A stretch of DNA of 64,000 nt. Source: Burkholderia sp. Bp8992. Its GTDB lineage: Bacteria > Pseudomonadota > Gammaproteobacteria > Burkholderiales > Burkholderiaceae. Of the stretch, positions 53,307 through 61,405 are shown piece by piece (position 1 is the first letter of the stretch; every line of letters begins with the position of its first letter). The notes below the pieces were generated by a model. The model searched no databases and was not told where the DNA came from. It worked only from the letters and a program-made list of their open reading frames with translations. Made by a program: the position numbers and the translations under genes. Location of the stretch: positions 62,001 through 126,000 of the forward strand of contig NZ_QTQI01000021.1 in NCBI RefSeq assembly GCF_003853705.1. Reading direction: 5' to 3'.

Positions 53307-54401
53307 ATGCAATTGCGACTTGATGCGCTGGAGCCGCACCTCGCGAAGGGGTTGGCCGGGCTCTATACCGTCTTCGGCGACGAGCCGCTGCTCGCGCAGG
53401 AAGCGTGCGACCGCATTCGTGCGGCCGCGCGCGCGGCCGGCTTCACCGAGCGTTCGGTGCATACGGTCGAGCGCGGCTTCGACTGGAGCGTGCTGCTCGG
53501 CGCGACCCAGGCGATGTCGCTGTTCGGCGAGCGTCAGCTGATCGAGCTGCGCATTCCGTCGGGCAAGCCCGGCAAGGAGGGCGCCGATGCGCTGAAGACG
53601 CTCGCGGCCACGCCCAATCCCGACGCGCTGATGCTCGTCACGTTGCCGCGTCTCGATGCGGCCACGCAGAAATCCGCGTGGTTTACCGCGCTGCAGAACG
53701 GCGGCGTCGCGCTGAAGATCGATCCGGTCGACCGCGCGCAACTGCCGAACTGGATCGGCCAGCGTCTCGCGATGCAGGGCCAGCGTGCCGCACCCGGCGA
53801 CGACGGGCGGCGTGCGCTGCAGTTCATCGCCGAGCGCGTCGAGGGCAACCTGCTCGCCGCGCACCAGGAAATCCAGAAGCTCGGGCTGCTGTATCCGCAA
53901 GGCGCGCTGTCGTTCGAGCAGGTGCACGACGCGGTGCTGAACGTCGCGCGCTACGACGTCTTCAAGCTGAACGAAGCGATGCTCGCCGGCGACGCCGCGC
54001 GGCTCGCGCGGATGATCGACGGGCTGAAGGGCGAGGGCGAGGCGATCGTGCTCGTGATGTGGGCCGTCGTCGAGGAATTGCGCACGTTGCTGCGGATCAA
54101 GCGCGGCGCGACGGCCGGCAAGCCGCTGGCGACGCTGCTGCGCGAGAACCGCGTGTGGGGGCCGCGCGAGCGGCTGATCGGCCCCGCGCTGAACCGCGTG
54201 TCGGAAGGCGTGCTCGAGAAGGCGCTCGCGTTCGCCGCGAAGCTCGACCGGCAGGTCAAGGGGCTCACGGCCGTCGCGCCGGGCCGCCGCACGCAGGACG
54301 AACCACCGCCCGATCCGTGGGACGGGCTGTTCCAGCTCGCGATGACGGTCGCGGGCGCGCGCGGCGAGCGACCGCCGACCGCGGGTCGTGTGCGACGCTA
54401 A
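53307..54401 (+). CDS. holA: DNA polymerase III delta subunit
   Basis: The delta subunit of the clamp loader opens the sliding clamp. The 364-residue protein opens [29 protein letters not shown] and shows [48 protein letters not shown] and the [23 protein letters not shown] segment of the delta family. It starts 18 bases after lptE and a promoter-like TACAAT lies in the 167-base gap before proA. The leuS-lptE-holA order supports the call. Confidence 0.95.
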
Positions 54402-54568
54402 GTCCCGTCAGGGCCTCCAGCGCGCGCTGCGCAACCCGCTTACAATGTTTTGATTGCTGGCGCGGCCTCCCGGCCGCTGCTTCGCCGGATGGCCGTCCCG
54501 CCGATGGCCATGCCACGCTTCCCCACGAATTCATGCCGCCCCGCGCGGCTCGCTTCTCGAGTCACACG

Positions 54569-55840
54569 ATGGATATCGATCAGTACATGACCGACCTGGG
54601 CCGTCGCGCCCGGCACGCTTCCCGCGCGATGGCGCGCGCCAGCACGGCCGCGAAGAACGCGGCGCTCGACGCGGTGGCCCGCGCGATCGAACGCGACGCG
54701 CAGGTGCTGAAGGACGCAAACGCGCGTGACGTCGCCCGCGCCCGTGAAAAGGGGCTCGATGCAGCGTTCGTCGACCGCCTGACGCTGTCGGACAAGGCGC
54801 TGAAGACGATGGTCGAAGGGCTGCGCCAGGTCGCGTCGCTGGCCGATCCGATCGGCGAGATCGGCAACCTCAAGTACCGCCCGAGCGGGATCCAGGTCGG
54901 CCAGATGCGCGTGCCGCTCGGCGTGATCGGCATCATCTACGAATCGCGCCCGAACGTGACGATCGACGCGGCCGCGCTGTGCCTGAAGTCGGGCAACGCG
55001 ACGATCCTGCGCGGCGGCTCCGAAGCGCTCGAATCGAATGCGGCGCTCGCGAAGCTGATCGGCGAAGGGCTCGAGGCGGCCGGGCTGCCGCAGGACGCGG
55101 TGCAGGTCGTCGCGACGGCCGATCGCGCGGCGGTCGGCAAGCTGATCACGATGACCGAATACGTCGACGTGATCGTGCCGCGCGGCGGCAAGAGCCTGAT
55201 CGAGCGCCTGATCAACGAGGCACGCGTGCCGATGATCAAGCACCTCGACGGCATCTGCCACGTGTACGTCGACGATCGCGCCGATCTCGCCAAGGCGCTG
55301 ACCGTCTGCGACAACGCGAAGACGCATCGCTACGGCACCTGCAACACGATGGAGACGCTGCTCGTGTCGAGCGGCATCGCGGCCGCGCTGCTGCCGCCGC
55401 TCGGCAAGCTGTATCGCGACAAGCAGGTCGAGCTGCGCGTCGACGCGGCTGCGCGCGCGGTGCTCGCCGATGCGGGCGTCGGCCCGCTCGTCGACGCGAC
55501 CGAGGAAGACTGGCACACCGAATATCTCGCGCCGGTGCTCGCGATCAAGGTCGTCGACGGCCTCGACGTCGCGATCGAGCACATCAACCATTACGGCTCG
55601 CATCACACCGATGCGATCGTCACCGAGGATCACGACCGCGCGATGCGTTTCCTGCGCGAAGTCGATTCGGCGAGCGTGATGGTCAACGCGTCGACGCGCT
55701 TCGCGGACGGCTTCGAATTCGGCCTCGGCGCGGAAATCGGCATCTCGAACGACAAGCTGCACGCACGCGGCCCCGTCGGCCTGGAAGGGCTGACGTCGCT
55801 GAAGTATGTCGTGCTCGGGCACGGCGAAGGCCGTCAATAA
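54569..55840 (+). CDS. proA: Gamma-glutamyl phosphate reductase
   Basis: ProA reduces gamma-glutamyl phosphate to glutamate semialdehyde in proline synthesis, 423 residues. Motifs are [37 protein letters not shown] (substrate/NADP site), [15 protein letters not shown] with the catalytic Cys, and [25 protein letters not shown]. The ATG at 54569 was chosen because the family begins MDIDQYM. It is the last gene of the high-G+C block before the low-G+C insertion. TACAAT near 54442 is a possible -10. Confidence 0.97.
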
Positions 55841-55861
55841 AGCACTTTCTAAGGATCTGGG

Positions 55862-57259
55862 ATGCTTACTAAGTTGCGAGTCAAAGGATTTAAGAGCCTC
55901 AACGATATAACCGTTAACTTTGGTCCGTTCACTTGCGTTGCAGGGGTCAACGGGGCTGGGAAATCCAATCTTTTTGATGCGATAGTTTTTCTGCGTGATT
56001 TGGCTGATATGCCAATAATAGCCGCGGCGAATCGTGTTAGAGATAGGGATGGAAAGCGCTTTGGGTCGGTAGGCTCAATTTTTACGCGCTACAAGGATGG
56101 TAGTGCGAGCCAAATGGAGTTGGAGGCGGAATTTTTAGTTCCAAATGCTGTGGTTGACGATTTCGGACGCCATGGGGCACCTCGCGTAACGCACCTGCGA
56201 TATCGGATCGTTCTCGGGTACGTGCTGGATGAGACATCGGGAAGCGAGCGTATTTTTTTGCTCGATGAATCGCTTAAATATATTCCGAAGCGTGATTTCA
56301 GACGCGGTCTTTTCCCTCACTCGGATGCGTTCTGGGATACGGTTAAGGGGGGAACTAAGACGTCGGATTTCATATCGACGGACAGAGATGGTGAAGATGA
56401 ACGTGTAATTGTAAACATTCACCAGGATTCCGGTAGTGGACGCCCGGAGCGGATTCCAGCTTTTGGTATGGAAAGAACGGCGTTGAGTGGAATTAATACG
56501 ATTGATCGGCCAACCGCGTTGGCGGCTCGACGCGAAATGCGTTCGTGGGCACTTTTGCAACTTGAGCCGTCAGCTTTGCGTCGACCCGACGATTTCTCAA
56601 CGCCGTCAGATATTCACGTCGCCCCGTCCGGCGCCCACATGCCGGCTACGCTTAAATCGCTGGATAAGGACGCAGAGGTCGCTAATCGACTTTCCGAACT
56701 GCTTCCAGACGTGGCAGAACTTTCCGTTGAGGTGGATGATAAGCGGGAATTGAAAACTCTCTATCTCACCAATAGAGACGGAATTCAGTACCCCGCGAAA
56801 GCGTTGTCGGATGGTACGCTCAGATTTTTGGCGCTAGCAATTATTCATGCGGATCCACGGGCGGGTGGTTTGATATGTCTGGAAGAACCGGAAAACGGAA
56901 TTCATCCGTCGAGAGTGAGGGCGATGACGAGTTTGCTTAGAGATATGGCGGTTGATCCAAATAGTGCGATAGGTGAATATAATCCGCTTCGGCAGGTGAT
57001 TATTAATACTCACTCTCCTTTGGTTGTTCAGGAGTTGTTGGCGGATGATCTTGTTGTTTGCCAACAGTATAGGTATAAGGGGGCTACTTTTAGCACGTTT
57101 GGATTTTTGGCAAAAACTTGGCGTGCTGATATGTCGAGTGAGAAACCAACATCATTAAGCACTTTGTTGGCGTATCTCAATGCGGATGAGGCCGGAGTAG
57201 AGCGAGGATCGGCAACGGTTGGGACGCTGTTGCGGGAGCAGTTGGAACTCTTTCATTGA
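55862..57259 (+). CDS. AAA/ABC-type ATPase of a two-gene low-G+C module
   Basis: A 465-residue SMC/RecF-like ATPase (AAA_21-type). Residues 1-27 form the ABC beta-sheet start (LTKLRVKGFKSLNDITV), Walker A is GVNGAGKS at 28-35, the ABC signature-like LSDGTLRF is at 315-322, Walker B is LICLEEPENGIHP at 337-349, and the switch histidine lies in NTHSP (382-386). The central 90-260 region is a specific insertion. Such ATPases with a TOPRIM/DUF4276-like partner often belong to anti-phage systems of the OLD/AbiL-like kind; here that is inference. Its codons and base composition are strikingly A/T-richer than proA and hemJ, so transfer is likely. It starts 21 bases after proA, with AAGGATCTGGG upstream. 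Confidence 0.92.
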   Translation: MLTKLRVKGFKSLNDITVNFGPFTCVAGVNGAGKSNLFDAIVFLRDLADMPIIAAANRVRDRDGKRFGSVGSIFTRYKDGSASQMELEAEFLVPNAVVDDFGRHGAPRVTHLRYRIVLGYVLDETSGSERIFLLDESLKYIPKRDFRRGLFPHSDAFWDTVKGGTKTSDFISTDRDGEDERVIVNIHQDSGSGRPERIPAFGMERTALSGINTIDRPTALAARREMRSWALLQLEPSALRRPDDFSTPSDIHVAPSGAHMPATLKSLDKDAEVANRLSELLPDVAELSVEVDDKRELKTLYLTNRDGIQYPAKALSDGTLRFLALAIIHADPRAGGLICLEEPENGIHPSRVRAMTSLLRDMAVDPNSAIGEYNPLRQVIINTHSPLVVQELLADDLVVCQQYRYKGATFSTFGFLAKTWRADMSSEKPTSLSTLLAYLNADEAGVERGSATVGTLLREQLELFH

Positions 57260-57270
57260 TCGAGGGGATC

Positions 57271-57885
57271 GTGCAATTTGTTCGTTACACGCTCCTCGCA
57301 GACGGGAGCTCTGATTCGGCACTACTGCCAATTATCCAATGGGTAATTGAGCAAAATTTTCCCAGTCTTGCGACGATGCCAGAATTTGCGCGAAATGGAA
57401 TTCCGGCTCCTTCCGAGGGGCTCCGGAGGCGAGTTGATGCAGCATTAGGGCTCTATGCCTGTGACGTTCTCTTCGTGCATCGAGATGCTGAACGAGATGA
57501 TCCTGATGATCGACGAACGGAACTCACCGACGAGTTGGGCGATCTTGAGACAGCGTGGATACCCGTTATTCCTGTCCGTATGACGGAGGCTTGGTTACTG
57601 GGTGATGAGCCGGCGATTAGGAAGGCGGCAGAGAATCCAAATGGGAGAGTCCAACTCGCGATTCCTCCTCGAGCCAAATGGGAAGCACTTCCAGACCCGA
57701 AGAGAGAGTTATTCCGGCTGCTTCATTTGGCAGCAGACCGGCCAGCGAGGCGCGCGATTAACGAAGGGCAATGTCGCAGCCGAGTTGCGGCCCTTACTGC
57801 CGATTTTTCGCATCTACGTGCGCTTCGGTCATTTCAAGTATTTGAGGCGGATGTTACTCGTGTATTCGGCGCATTTGAGGATTGA
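57271..57885 (+). CDS. TOPRIM/DUF4276-like partner protein of the low-G+C module
   Basis: A 204-residue protein from GTG 57271, with GAGGGG at 57262-57267; a TTG at 57256 overlapping the ATPase stop is a weaker alternative. YTLLADGSSDSALLPII opens the protein, resembling the VEGxTE/GxxD start of DUF4276-type TOPRIM folds; DVLFVHRDAERDD (residues 65-77) supplies an Asp pair, and RMTEAWLLGD (103-112) an expected acidic residue. These match the metal-binding TOPRIM pattern, so a nuclease or effector role is plausible. It lies 11 bases after the ATPase gene and 3 bases before hemJ, with low G+C like the ATPase, so both were probably acquired together. Confidence 0.88.
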   Translation: MQFVRYTLLADGSSDSALLPIIQWVIEQNFPSLATMPEFARNGIPAPSEGLRRRVDAALGLYACDVLFVHRDAERDDPDDRRTELTDELGDLETAWIPVIPVRMTEAWLLGDEPAIRKAAENPNGRVQLAIPPRAKWEALPDPKRELFRLLHLAADRPARRAINEGQCRSRVAALTADFSHLRALRSFQVFEADVTRVFGAFED

Positions 57886-57888
57886 ACA

Positions 57889-58311
57889 ATGGCAATGCTC
57901 TGGGTCAAGACGTTCCATATCGTTCTGATCGCCGCGTGGTTCGCGGGGCTCTTCTACCTGCCGCGCATCTACGTGAACCTGGCCATGGAGACCGATCCGG
58001 CCGCGGTACGGCGCCTGCTGCTGATGGCGCGCAAGCTGTTCCGCTTCATGACGATGATCGCGGTGCCGGCGCTCGCCTGCGGGCTGTGGCTCTGGCTCGT
58101 GATCGGCATCGGGCAGGGGCAGGGCTGGATCCATGCGAAGGTGACGGTCGTGCTGCTGCTCGTCATCTACCACGCGTACTGCGGGCACCTGCTGCGCGTG
58201 TTCGAGCGCGGCGAGAACCGCCGCACCGACAAGTGGTATCGCGTGTTCAACGAGCTGCCGGTGCTCGGCATGCTCGTGGCCGTCGCGCTGGTCGTGATCA
58301 AGCCGTTCTGA
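57889..58311 (+). CDS. hemJ: Protoporphyrinogen oxidase HemJ-like (UPF0093) membrane protein
   Basis: A 140-residue inner-membrane protein with four hydrophobic segments. LWVKTFHIVLIAAWFAGLFYLPRIYVNL contains the conserved His 10, and GWIHAKVTVVLLLVIYHAYCGHLL and NELPVLGMLVAVALVVIKPF follow the HemJ pattern (haem synthesis, protoporphyrinogen IX oxidation). Many genomes annotate it as a CopD-family protein. The ATG at 57889 has GAGG eight bases upstream. G+C returns to high values exactly here. In related genomes proA and hemJ would be adjacent, so the module upstream is an insertion (inference). Confidence 0.88.
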   Translation: MAMLWVKTFHIVLIAAWFAGLFYLPRIYVNLAMETDPAAVRRLLLMARKLFRFMTMIAVPALACGLWLWLVIGIGQGQGWIHAKVTVVLLLVIYHAYCGHLLRVFERGENRRTDKWYRVFNELPVLGMLVAVALVVIKPF

Positions 58312-58349
58312 ACGGCGCGGCCGGCGAATACGTCGCCGTCGAATCATGC

Positions 58350-58377
58350 ACAACGGCGCCCCTCGGGGCGCCGTTGT
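58350..58377. terminator. Bidirectional hairpin between hemJ and hexR
   Basis: ACAACGGCGCCC-CTCG-GGGCGCCGTTGT is a perfect 12-bp stem in the gap between convergent genes. Only short T stretches follow (TACGTTT on plus), so it is a probable but not classic terminator. Confidence 0.65.
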
Positions 58378-58405
58378 TACGTTTACGCGCGGCGTCCCGC
58401 GACGG

Positions 58406-59254
58406 CTATTCCTTCGTCGGATCGTCGATCCGGCGGCGCGTGATCGCTTCCTTCGCACGGCCGACCCGTTCCATCAGCGCGGGGCCGCGCGACAGCGCGA
58501 CGCCGACCGCGAGGATGTCGCCGATCGCGAGATGCGACATCCGCGACGTCATCGGCGAGAACACGTCCGTTTCCTCGGCAACGTTCGACGCAAGGCTCAC
58601 GGTTGCGAGCTTCGCGAGCGGCGAATGGCTCTGCGTGATCGCGACGACTTTCGCGCCGCATGCGAGCGCGGAGCGTGCGGCGTCGACGATGTCGCGCGTG
58701 CGGCCGGTGTTCGAGATCGCGACGACGACGTCGTGCGGCCCGAGCAGCGCCGACGACATCGAGAAGGTGTGCGGATCCGAGTACGCGACGCTCGGCACGC
58801 CGAGCCGGAAGAACTTGTGCTGGATGTCCTGCGCGGCGATGCCCGAGCCGCCGGCGCCGTAGAACTCGATCCGCGACGCGTTCGACAGCAGCGCGATCGC
58901 CTCGGCGACGCTGCCGGCAGACAGGCTGTTGCGCACTTCGATCAGTGCGCCGATCGTGCGGTCGAACACCTTGCCGATGATGCCGGGCGCCGGTTCGTCG
59001 GGCTCGACGTCGCGGTAGACCGACGACACGCCCGGCGCGACGCTCTGCGCGAGCCGGATCTTGAATTCGCGAAAGCCGCTGCAGCCGAGCGCCTGGCAGA
59101 AGCGTGCGATGGTCGGCTGGCTGACGCCCGCGCGCGTCGACAGCTCGGTCATCGCGAGGTCGAGCACCTCGCGCGGCGCGGCGAGGATGTAGTCGGCGAG
59201 CTTGCGCTCGGAGGGGCGCAGGTCGGCGCGGATCGCTTCAATGCGAGGCAGCAT
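58406..59254 (-). CDS. hexR: HexR-like RpiR-family transcriptional regulator
   Basis: A 282-residue regulator controlling Entner-Doudoroff genes. The N-terminal RpiR helix-turn-helix (RPSERKLADYILAAPREVLDLAMTELSTRAGVSQPTIARFCQALG) binds DNA, and the SIS domain (IEFYGAGGSGIAAQDIQHKFFRLG, VVAISNTGRTRDIVDAARSA) senses a phosphosugar, known to be KDPG in HexR of Pseudomonas. It is divergent from edd, with two HexR-like palindromes between, so it probably represses edd-eda and itself. Confidence 0.92.
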   Translation of the reverse strand: MLPRIEAIRADLRPSERKLADYILAAPREVLDLAMTELSTRAGVSQPTIARFCQALGCSGFREFKIRLAQSVAPGVSSVYRDVEPDEPAPGIIGKVFDRTIGALIEVRNSLSAGSVAEAIALLSNASRIEFYGAGGSGIAAQDIQHKFFRLGVPSVAYSDPHTFSMSSALLGPHDVVVAISNTGRTRDIVDAARSALACGAKVVAITQSHSPLAKLATVSLASNVAEETDVFSPMTSRMSHLAIGDILAVGVALSRGPALMERVGRAKEAITRRRIDDPTKE

Positions 59255-59305
59255 GGGACGGCATGTGGAAATCGGGTTCGGATGAGCGAGTGTATCGCAA
59301 TCGAA

Positions 59306-59322
59306 TTGTAGAAAATCTACAA
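59306..59322. promoter_or_regulatory. HexR operator-like palindrome TTGTAGA-AAA-TCTACAA
   Basis: Perfect 17-bp palindrome, 52 bases upstream of hexR. It matches the TTGT-N-ACAA-type HexR consensus known from Pseudomonas. Confidence 0.75.
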
Positions 59323-59448
59323 GAAAATACTAGCGCCATCGTCGCGCTTTCGATGTGGTTGCGACACGCGTAATTAGGGTTTTCACTAGTTAATGCCTTG
59401 CTGGTAGCGGGAATGAGGGTTGCGTGTCGTTCGATCCACATTGCGTGC

Positions 59449-59465
59449 TTGTAGTTTTTCTACTA
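59449..59465. promoter_or_regulatory. Second HexR operator-like site TTGTAG-TTTTT-CTACTA
   Basis: Near-palindrome (5 of 6 arm positions) 83-99 bases upstream of edd, sharing TGTAG/CTAC with the site at 59306. It likely controls edd-eda. Confidence 0.65.
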
Positions 59466-59548
59466 GACTGGCTTCGTTCGATCGACGAAGCTCGACCGTC
59501 CCCACGATTCCAACCGCCGGTGTCGGCCGGCATACAGGAGCGCCCAGC

Positions 59549-61405
59549 ATGACGTCGCTGCACCCCACTCTGGCGAAGGTCACCGAACGCGTGATCGCCC
59601 GCAGCCAATCGACCCGTTCCGCCTATCTGCAGCGCATCGACGGCGCGCAGGGCAAGTTCCCGGCACGCGGCGCGCTGTCGTGTGCGAACCTCGCGCACGG
59701 CTTCGCGGGCCTCGAAGGCAACGACAAGTTCTCGATCAAGGCGATCCGCGAGCCGAACATCGGCATCGTGTCCTCGTATAACGAGATGCTGTCCGCGCAT
59801 GCGCCGTACAAGGATTTCCCCGAGATCATCAAGGCCGCCGCGCGCGAGAACGGCGGCGTCGCCCAGTTCGCGGGCGGCGTGCCGGCGATGTGCGACGGCG
59901 TCACGCAGGGCAACCCGGGGATGGAGCTGTCGCTGTTCTCGCGCGAAGCGATCGCGATGGGCACGGCGATCGCGCTCACGCACAACATGTTCGACGCGGC
60001 GCTCTGCCTCGGCATCTGCGACAAGATCGTGCCGGGCCTCCTGATCGGCGCGCTGCAGTTCGGCCACCTGCCGACGATCTTCGTGCCGGCCGGCCCGATG
60101 ACGAGCGGCCTGTCGAACGACGACAAGGCGAAGATCCGCCAGCAGTTCGCGACCGGCCAGGTCGGCCGCGACGCGCTGCTCGAAGCCGAATCGGCCGCGT
60201 ATCACGGCCACGGCACCTGCACGTTCTACGGCACCGCGAACAGCAACCAGATGCTGATGGAGCTGATGGGGCTGCACCTGCCGGGCTCGGCATTCGTTCA
60301 TCCGCACACGCCGCTGCGCACCGCGCTGACGGCCGAGGCCGCGCGCCGCGTGCTCGACCTGACCGTCGAGCGCGGCCACTACACGCCGATCGGCCATGTG
60401 ATCGACGAGAAGGCGATCGTCAACGGAATCGTCGCGCTGCTCGCGACGGGCGGCTCGACCAACCACACGCTGCACCTCGTCGCGATCGCCCGCGCGGCCG
60501 GCATCCTGATCGACTGGAACGACTTCGACGAGCTGTCGGCCGTCGTGCCGCTGCTCGCGAAGATCTACCCGAACGGCAAGGCCGACGTGAACCATTTCCA
60601 CGCGGCGGGCGGCGTCGCGTTCCTGGTACGCAACCTGCTGGAAGGCGGGCTGCTGCACGAGGACGTGACGACGGTCGCCGGCAAGGGGCTCGCGCACTAC
60701 ACGAAGGAGCCGAAGCTGATCGACGGCAAGCTGACGTGGGTCGACGGCGCGGCCGAGAGCCACGACACGAAGGTGCTGCGCGGCATTCGCGACCCGTTCC
60801 AGCCGGACGGCGGCCTGCGCCTGATGCAGGGCCGGCTCGGCCGCGGCGTGATCAAGATCTCGGCGGTCGCGCCCGAGCACCGCAAGGTGACGGCGCCGGC
60901 GATCGTGTTCGACTCGCAGGAAGCCGTGCAGGAAGCGTTCGATCGTGGCGAGCTGAAGCGCGATTTCGTCGCGGTCGTGCGCTTCCAGGGCGCGCGTGCG
61001 AACGGGATGCCCGAGCTGCACCGTTTGACGCCGCTGCTCGGCGTGCTGCAGGATCAGGGCTTCCATGTCGCGCTGGTTACCGACGGCCGCATGTCGGGCG
61101 CGTCGGGCAAGGTGCCGGCCGTGATCCACGTATCGCCGGAAGCGCTGCTGGCCGGCCCGCTCGGCAAGGTGAAGACGGGCGATACGCTCGTGATCGACGC
61201 GGAAGCCGGCGTGCTCGACATCGAGGTCGACGACGCCGAGTGGCGTGCGCGCCCGGTCGCGCAGCCGCAGCACCAGGCCGAGAACGAGGTCGGGTTCGGG
61301 CGCGAACTGTTCGGCGTGTTCCGCGCGGCCGCAGCGCCGGCCGAGCAGGGCGCATCGGTTTTCGGGACGCTGGTCGGCGAAACGGCCGCCCACGTCGCCG
61401 CATGA
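59549..61405 (+). CDS. edd: Phosphogluconate dehydratase
   Basis: Edd dehydrates 6-phosphogluconate to KDPG, the first Entner-Doudoroff step. The 618-residue protein is of the IlvD/Edd family: [41 protein letters not shown] and [21 protein letters not shown] contain cluster-binding Cys, and [17 protein letters not shown] and [20 protein letters not shown] follow. Start chosen at 59549 with CAGGAGCGCCC upstream. It is followed by eda after 19 bases. Confidence 0.97.

Follow-up and report, generated by a model that had tools for sequence, protein, structure and literature searches.

Several described systems bring together an ATPase resembling structural maintenance of chromosomes (SMC) proteins and an activity of the TOPRIM type. 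OLD nucleases and the Gabija protein GajA are of this kind, and in PARIS (AriA/AriB, OLD class 4) the ATPase and TOPRIM-type genes are separate and lie side by side, as described in a portion of PMC10568477. PADLOC contains models of an Hma-embedded candidate (HEC), HEC-01, which is mentioned in a passage of a phage-defence paper (PMC12724379); several Hma-embedded candidates are reported to be active in an excerpt of PMC12988326. The present work concerns two adjacent genes, encoding an ATPase and a smaller partner protein, at positions 55862-57885 of a 64,000-nucleotide stretch of Burkholderia sp. Bp8992 DNA (contig NZ_QTQI01000021.1; hereafter the window), where they separate the housekeeping genes proA and hemJ. 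The pair is probably, if by no means certainly, a HEC-01-type ATP-gated nuclease with a likely antiviral role, exchanged via recombination in the flanking core genes.

Both genes match HEC-01 models, read without PADLOC's own thresholds: the ATPase matches HEC-01A model PDLC04184 (E 4.5e-96, positions 1-398 of 464) and the partner HEC-01B model PDLC04210 (E 3e-18, positions 1-207 of 217). On the evidence of its sequence, the locus is a HEC-01-type two-gene module in which ATPase and partner form a conserved pair. It differs from HEC-01 in standing alone between two housekeeping genes rather than being embedded in an Hma system; the HEC name reflects how the candidates were discovered and may not amount to a rule of membership. 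A pattern scan for the ATPase in one genome per species gave at least 592 matches, at least 571 of them confirmed relatives, and the best 80 loci were kept. The partner is a separate neighbouring open reading frame (ORF) in 76 of these 80 ATPase-found loci, a count that excludes L001-L006, which were found through the partner; no partner similarity was detected in L047, L068 or L073. At L057 (1171-2817) the ATPase ORF is itself similar to the partner (E 1.8e-6), which may indicate a fused protein like the single-chain members of the OLD family. An initial annotation had anticipated a match to a candidate defence family, as found here; its suggestion that the exact pair might be undescribed does not survive the HEC-01 matches and the number of ATPase relatives.

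The ATPase gene (55862-57259; like all features below, on the plus strand unless stated) encodes a 465 amino acid, HEC-01A-like protein of the SMC/OLD/PtuA type of ATP-binding cassette (ABC) ATPases. It matches Pfam AAA_21 (E 1.9e-29), one of the families that the initial annotation had proposed searching, and its AlphaFold model (predicted local distance difference test score, pLDDT, 94.2) has Foldseek matches to PtuA (1.4e-12), an SMC head (3.3e-12) and OLD (6p74, 2.2e-11). All the SMC/OLD-type ABC motifs that had been read from it are complete, and are invariant or nearly so in an alignment of 80 sequences comprising the window and 79 of 86 candidates (L001-L006 and L010 were dropped). Walker A, GVNGAGKSN (residues 28-36, 55943-55969), has invariant G28, N30, G33, K34 and S35; the ABC signature, LSDGTLRFL (residues 315-323, 56804-56830), has invariant L315, S316, D317, G318, R321 and F322; Walker B and the subsequent loop, LICLEEPENGIHP (residues 337-349, 56870-56908), are invariant at C339 and from E341 to P349; and the switch histidine lies in NTHSP (residues 382-386, 57005-57019), where N382, T383, H384 and P386 are invariant.

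The partner gene (57271-57885, GTG start) encodes a 204 amino acid, HEC-01B-like protein whose nine PADLOC matches at E <= 1 are every one a HEC-01B model. Its relationship to DUF4276 (PF14103), proposed in the initial annotation, emerged from profile comparison and not from Pfam, where it scores 17.2 bits, under the gathering cut-off of 30.2: the partner profile matched eight DUF4276 proteins, encoded in genomes of the family to which the window belongs, along its full length (probability 96.5, E 8.2e-10, 198 columns). No significant match was found to seven proteins of a second DUF4276 subgroup (probability 2.6), nor any match to six DUF4435 (AriB-type) sequences (hhalign probability 0.2), negatives that are weaker than the DUF4276 positive because the comparison sets are small and were split by eye. 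The DUF4276 members were divided in this way into A4 (8, with a visible E-x-W motif) and A6 (7), L190 and L191 being unused.

The TOPRIM pattern consists of an acid after strand 1 and a DxD-type motif after strand 3, within an alternating alpha/beta fold. In the predicted model of the partner (pLDDT 95.8), D11, within DGSSD (57301-57315), follows a first strand at residues 3-9, and D72-x-E74, within HRDAE (57478-57492), follows a third at 66-70. The DGSSD, HRDAE and MTEAWLL motifs noted in the initial annotation thus exist with TOPRIM-type placement; a reading of HRDAERDD as a DxD motif starting from H70 gave way to D72-x-E74. The partner alignment contains 72 sequences, namely the window and 71 of 81 candidate ORFs, with L001-L006 dropped, and L040, L042, L056 and L064 dropped for mis-sized ORFs. 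Invariant in these are H70, D72, R81, M104, E106, W108, K144 (57700-57702) and L182; position 11 is D in 62 rows, E in nine and a gap in one, and position 74 is E in 63 and D in nine. When aligned with the DUF4276 members, D11 corresponds to the first acid, D72/E74 to the DxD place, with D72 facing an invariant D, and E106 to the third acid, E106 and W108 of MTEAW (57580-57594) pairing with E113 and W115; H70 and K144 are invariant features by which the partner differs from that family. Judged by these sequence comparisons, the partner is a diverged DUF4276 relative with TOPRIM-type motif placement.

These features separate the pair from the better-known systems that it resembles. It shares with PARIS two adjoining separate genes for an ATPase and a TOPRIM-type protein, and the ATPase matches the PADLOC models of AriA, mad3 and AbiLi as well as NCBIfam MAD3, which could place the pair in PARIS, MADS or AbiL. 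However, the ATPase scores 320.6 bits on HEC-01A against 101.3 on mad3, 96.6 on AriA and 63.5 on AbiLi, its NCBIfam MAD3 score of 139.9 bits compares with a cut-off of 420, and the partner is DUF4276-like, its PADLOC and DUF4435 results both pointing away from these systems; membership of any of the three is hardly credible. AbiL was rejected as the family, no AbiLii-type match occurring among the partner's nine families at E <= 1, as were PARIS/DUF4435 and MADS on PADLOC, NCBIfam and profile scores, so that the AbiL and DUF4435 affiliations raised in the initial annotation both fall by these tests. A search of the openly licensed PubMed Central literature returned nothing relevant on MADS, no occurrence of the term 'DUF4276' and no mention of proA, hemJ and Burkholderia together. 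OLD nucleases and GajA differ from the window system in that the latter consists of two proteins, without a neighbouring helicase gene. Septu and retron Ec78 provide, in PtuA, the best structural match of the ATPase, but the window partner is of the HEC-01B/DUF4276 type and not HNH, and no reverse transcriptase gene lies between proA and hemJ.

The ORF listing and a reading of the sequence agree with the initial annotation that two complete genes, co-directional on one strand, fill the proA-hemJ gap. The left flank (54569-55840, stop at 55840) has at least 89.6% amino acid identity in 62 empty Burkholderia loci; we take this ORF to be proA and another ORF to be holA, names given without a family search. 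The right flank, hemJ (57889-58311), matches UPF0093 in Pfam (E 4.4e-39) and TIGR00701 (E 1.8e-35; 122.1 bits, under the cut-off of 138.05), and is present in every one of the 65 Burkholderia genomes. The pair is probably co-read with proA and hemJ, because only 21 bp separate the proA stop from the ATPase start (55841-55861), 11 bp the ATPase from the partner and 3 bp the partner stop from the hemJ start (57886-57888). The 11 bp spacing applies to the GTG start at 57271, which has gagggg just upstream and appears better than the TTG at 57256, where the partner ORF begins as listed (57256-57885).

The foreign composition first noted from the codons of the pair is clear. G+C content is 0.508 across 55862-57885, against a mean of 0.681 (standard deviation 0.021, minimum 0.632) in 290 further 2-kb windows from the 64-kb stretch, and G+C at third codon positions (GC3) is 0.473 in the ATPase and 0.446 in the partner, compared with 0.89-0.95 in holA, proA and hemJ. 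No tRNA was found in the window, no Rfam match in 54000-60000 and no mobility gene between the flanks. The initial annotation had reported neither integrase nor repeats; the former holds between the flanks, and short repeats are present, all of them inside the two genes.

The Bp8992 assembly was not in the genome sample, and its nearest genome, G001, was taken as the centre. Among 65 Burkholderia genomes a partner relative occurs in six, of which the three close ones (G016, G026 and G028) lie between proA and hemJ; in the other 62, in the comparison of spacing that the initial annotation had recommended, the junction is empty, with a gap of 16-73 bp. Across 398 genomes of the Burkholderia family, eight ATPase relatives were found at E <= 1e-60, four close ones at the junction, including that of Paraburkholderia saeva, and four distant ones (42-48% identity) whose 1.5-kb flanks contain neither of the two housekeeping genes. 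The 294 genomes of a second family yielded 12 ATPase matches, all flanked by proA, 11 also by hemJ and one at a contig end, a prevalence that is biased in that six carriers (G403-G408) had already been reached through loci. The 15 carriers at proA-hemJ, with intervals of 2003-2055 bp, comprise the window, G016, G026, G028, P. saeva and ten loci of Oxalobacteraceae type, among them two metagenome bins not assigned to a named family; no proA was obtained from L107 and L001-L003, and the longer loci L117-L119 of those genomes were used instead. Of 56 second-family loci with hemJ, the 30 best-scoring were viewed; in 29 of these empty loci the gap is 0-147 bp, and in the remaining one it is 630 bp. 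The 630-bp spacer, in L236, is filled by a repeated G+C-rich unit; only repeats are present there, and a pair remnant was rejected.

In a tree of 90 ATPases, consisting of the 80 aligned sequences plus ten added rows and thus limited to the best 80 loci and those additions, the 18 junction members, from Burkholderia, Paraburkholderia and Oxalobacteraceae, coincide exactly with a single clade (support 0.995); L172, a nineteenth carrier ending at a contig end, was omitted from the trees. The sister group, L016-L020, sits at other sites, with L016-L018 following a glutamyl/glutaminyl-tRNA synthetase gene. Monophyly is the non-circular form of this result: that 45 of 45 comparisons of junction members share an address, or 26 of 26 for pairs under 60% ATPase identity, follows from the definition of the set by site. 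Among loci elsewhere, a flanking stretch is common to 28 of 31 comparisons at ATPase identities of at least 80% and to 19 of 1578 at 50-80%. Seven Caldilineaceae loci (at least 82% ATPase identity), for example, have a recJ-like neighbour in common, with a DHH domain in three scanned ORFs. Close kin therefore often keep their address, and it is the keeping of an address below 60% identity that sets the proA-hemJ clade apart. Some clades readily change address, as L035 has 93% ATPase identity to L044 and L047 and no flanking stretch in common with them.

Copies of the pair at this junction seem to have arrived separately, a conclusion that is well supported in the case of the window and G026, and probable for the other carriers, because of their fourfold-site divergence and the rejection of the core grouping by the pair. 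The core tree unites the window with G026 (support 99/96), and the two have 98.0% identity in core proteins and 77.8% in the pair; differences at fourfold sites amount to 10% in proA and 14% in hemJ against 67% in the ATPase and 64% in the partner, the pair being near saturation. Saturation may come sooner in low-GC3 genes than in core genes with a GC3 bias, yet nonsynonymous divergence (dN) also differs, at 0.122 against 0.009. Synonymous divergence (dS) by the Nei-Gojobori method (NG86) was not computable for the ATPase, and was computable for the partner in four of ten comparisons, with dN/dS of 0.05-0.14. In approximately unbiased (AU) tests, for which the groups were chosen after a first quick tree, the pair tree rejects window+G026 (p 0.001) as well as a clade restricted to Burkholderia (p 0.024), P. 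saeva being placed inside, and G016+G026 is in turn rejected by the core data (p 0.033). These data also bear on the alternative that the pair is ancestral at proA-hemJ and has been inherited vertically with massive loss. It would be consistent with the correlation of pair and core distances over 18 carriers (Spearman 0.85) and with the separation of Burkholderia-type and Oxalobacteraceae-type copies in the ATPase tree, but it accords poorly with near-saturated fourfold sites in the pair and not the flanks, softened as that is by the GC3 effect, and with the AU rejection and the identities of window and G026. We regard it as unlikely overall and as disfavoured inside Burkholderia; the same correlation argues that exchange has been mostly among relatives. 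At the proA-hemJ locus of L021 (Duganella sp. 1411), the pair has 52.6% identity to that of L168 and the core proteins 89.1%, which suggests a divergent arrival or fast evolution; the L021 ATPase has a G+C content of 0.63, near the locus average.

The sequence around the window pair resembles that of empty chromosomes. Compared with the empty neighbours G001 and G054, its flanks have 96% identity in the final 100 bp of proA and 99-100% in the initial 100 bp of hemJ, the same closeness as elsewhere, and the variants private to the window relative to 62 empty genomes number one in 900 bp of proA and none in 420 bp of hemJ. The flanks of G028 are likewise close to its empty neighbour G015, and for G016 and P. 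saeva the set offers no closely related empty genome for such a comparison. A hint to the contrary comes from the last 60 bp of the window proA, which contain four differences to the nearest empty genome, as in one other of 15 bins, the rest having 0-2.

The favoured reading is that the ATPase would sense an infection- or DNA-linked signal, that its ATP-driven dimerisation would license the partner as a metal-dependent nuclease, and that the outcome would be abortive or anti-invader defence. The antiviral role is suggested by the HEC-01 match, the OLD/PARIS/Septu-like architecture and the patchy, low-G+C and apparently horizontal character of the pair. The pair would move through double homologous recombination in proA and hemJ, its conserved flanks, the route that had been proposed in the initial annotation and that is supported here as the likeliest; recombination from near kin would give one address, patchiness and an absence of mobility genes. 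In sections of PMC5635113 such integrase-free exchange via flanking core genes is an established route, and the hotspots described there resemble this locus in recombining without mobility genes, but differ in turning over varied genes, proA-hemJ having only this pair in the loci examined.

Several observations weigh against this combined reading. Varied cargo would be expected at a recombination hotspot, but neither the 62 empty Burkholderia loci nor the 30 viewed second-family loci showed any gene other than the pair at this junction, which makes for a poorer fit. At a resolution of 60-100 bp no donor-like tract is visible in the window flanks, so that short tracts or nearly identical donors would be needed. 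A placement of P. saeva among the Burkholderia carriers is not rejected by the core data (p 0.22), making the incongruence weaker there. The partner model has no significant match among solved structures, its best being E 0.03 in the PDB (none <= 0.001) and 0.048 in BFVD; no activity test of HEC-01 was found in the literature searched; and the commonest Pfam families beside relatives elsewhere are housekeeping ones.

The single cargo and the missing donor flank would both be explained if the pair were instead a homing-like element, whose nuclease recognises and breaks the empty proA-hemJ junction and which is then copied in by repair. One clade at one junction across the two families sampled, the separate arrivals, a replacement spanning exactly the proA stop to the hemJ start with recipient-like flanks up to the junction, and the recurrence of another DUF4276-ATPase pair at a fixed junction would all be in keeping with this idea, and a passage of PMC10568477 lists the OLD-class GajA:GajB with site-specific nicking activity. 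By contrast, the native spacer was not found split at both ends, as simple cut-and-insert would leave, most of the distant relatives have different addresses, and passive recombination in core flanks equally gives one address. Homing is accordingly a distinctly unlikely account. There is a correspondingly slim chance that the pair is a homing-like defence module able to propagate itself, with one clade held at one junction in two families while staying rare and patchy, and that other DUF4276-ATPase clades act alike at other housekeeping junctions.

The neighbourhoods and replicons of relatives bear on the remaining alternative, that the pair is a DNA- or RNA-repair or stress module, patchy by chance. 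Besides the housekeeping neighbours, it could draw on an archaeal OLD-family protein that, according to part of PMC12796447, has a role in the cell cycle and apparently none in defence. Copies on plasmids and phages are few: the partner was found in a single plasmid record out of 72,556 and in no phage record out of 50,697, the ATPase at E <= 1e-40 in three plasmid records and one phage record, and viral contigs contained none for the partner and one distant match for the ATPase. However, plasmid rarity is not diagnostic, two control queries having given 8 and 0 of the 72,556 records, and it was rejected as a telling sign. Against a non-defence role also stand the patchy, low-G+C pair that has apparently moved between lineages, the best match being to a defence-candidate model set, and the defence models matched by some neighbours, for which 81 families were matched over 121 neighbour ORFs, the count of ORFs matched not being reported; the scan took in 121 of the 247 flanking ORFs on the list, chiefly those closest to the pair, with some long or repeated recJ-like ORFs dropped and no random-locus control. 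A non-defence role has a small but appreciable chance of being correct. General embedding of the pairs in operons was rejected, close co-directional genes on both sides being present in 7 of 53 non-proA loci, a count lowered by a crude ORF caller that recovers 5 of 10 proA-hemJ loci.

Islands and mobile elements are common locations for defence modules, and every sampled member of the clade here is at one junction. Full and empty alleles of that junction form a clean natural system for studying integrase-free gene spread, and for asking if a module with a nuclease can promote its own dissemination. The pair itself is a compact HEC-01-type candidate with a defined set of conserved residues.

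Fixed positions beside housekeeping genes are also seen in other DUF4276-ATPase pairs. One sits between two parts of a gene that we take to be metH-like, in two genera (L204-L207, from genomes of the Burkholderia family; L250, L251, L252 and L254); in one genus the ATPase is there in 4 of 30 viewed loci, the other 26 having gaps of 30-88 bp. Another, at about 4080-5944 in L209 and about 4341-6199 in L210, has the same gene order in both, apparently in a histidine operon, with a presumably HisA-like gene downstream. Within the window, a second, smaller dip in G+C content (0.568) occurs at 59200-59599, over the start side of a minus-strand ORF at 58406-59254.

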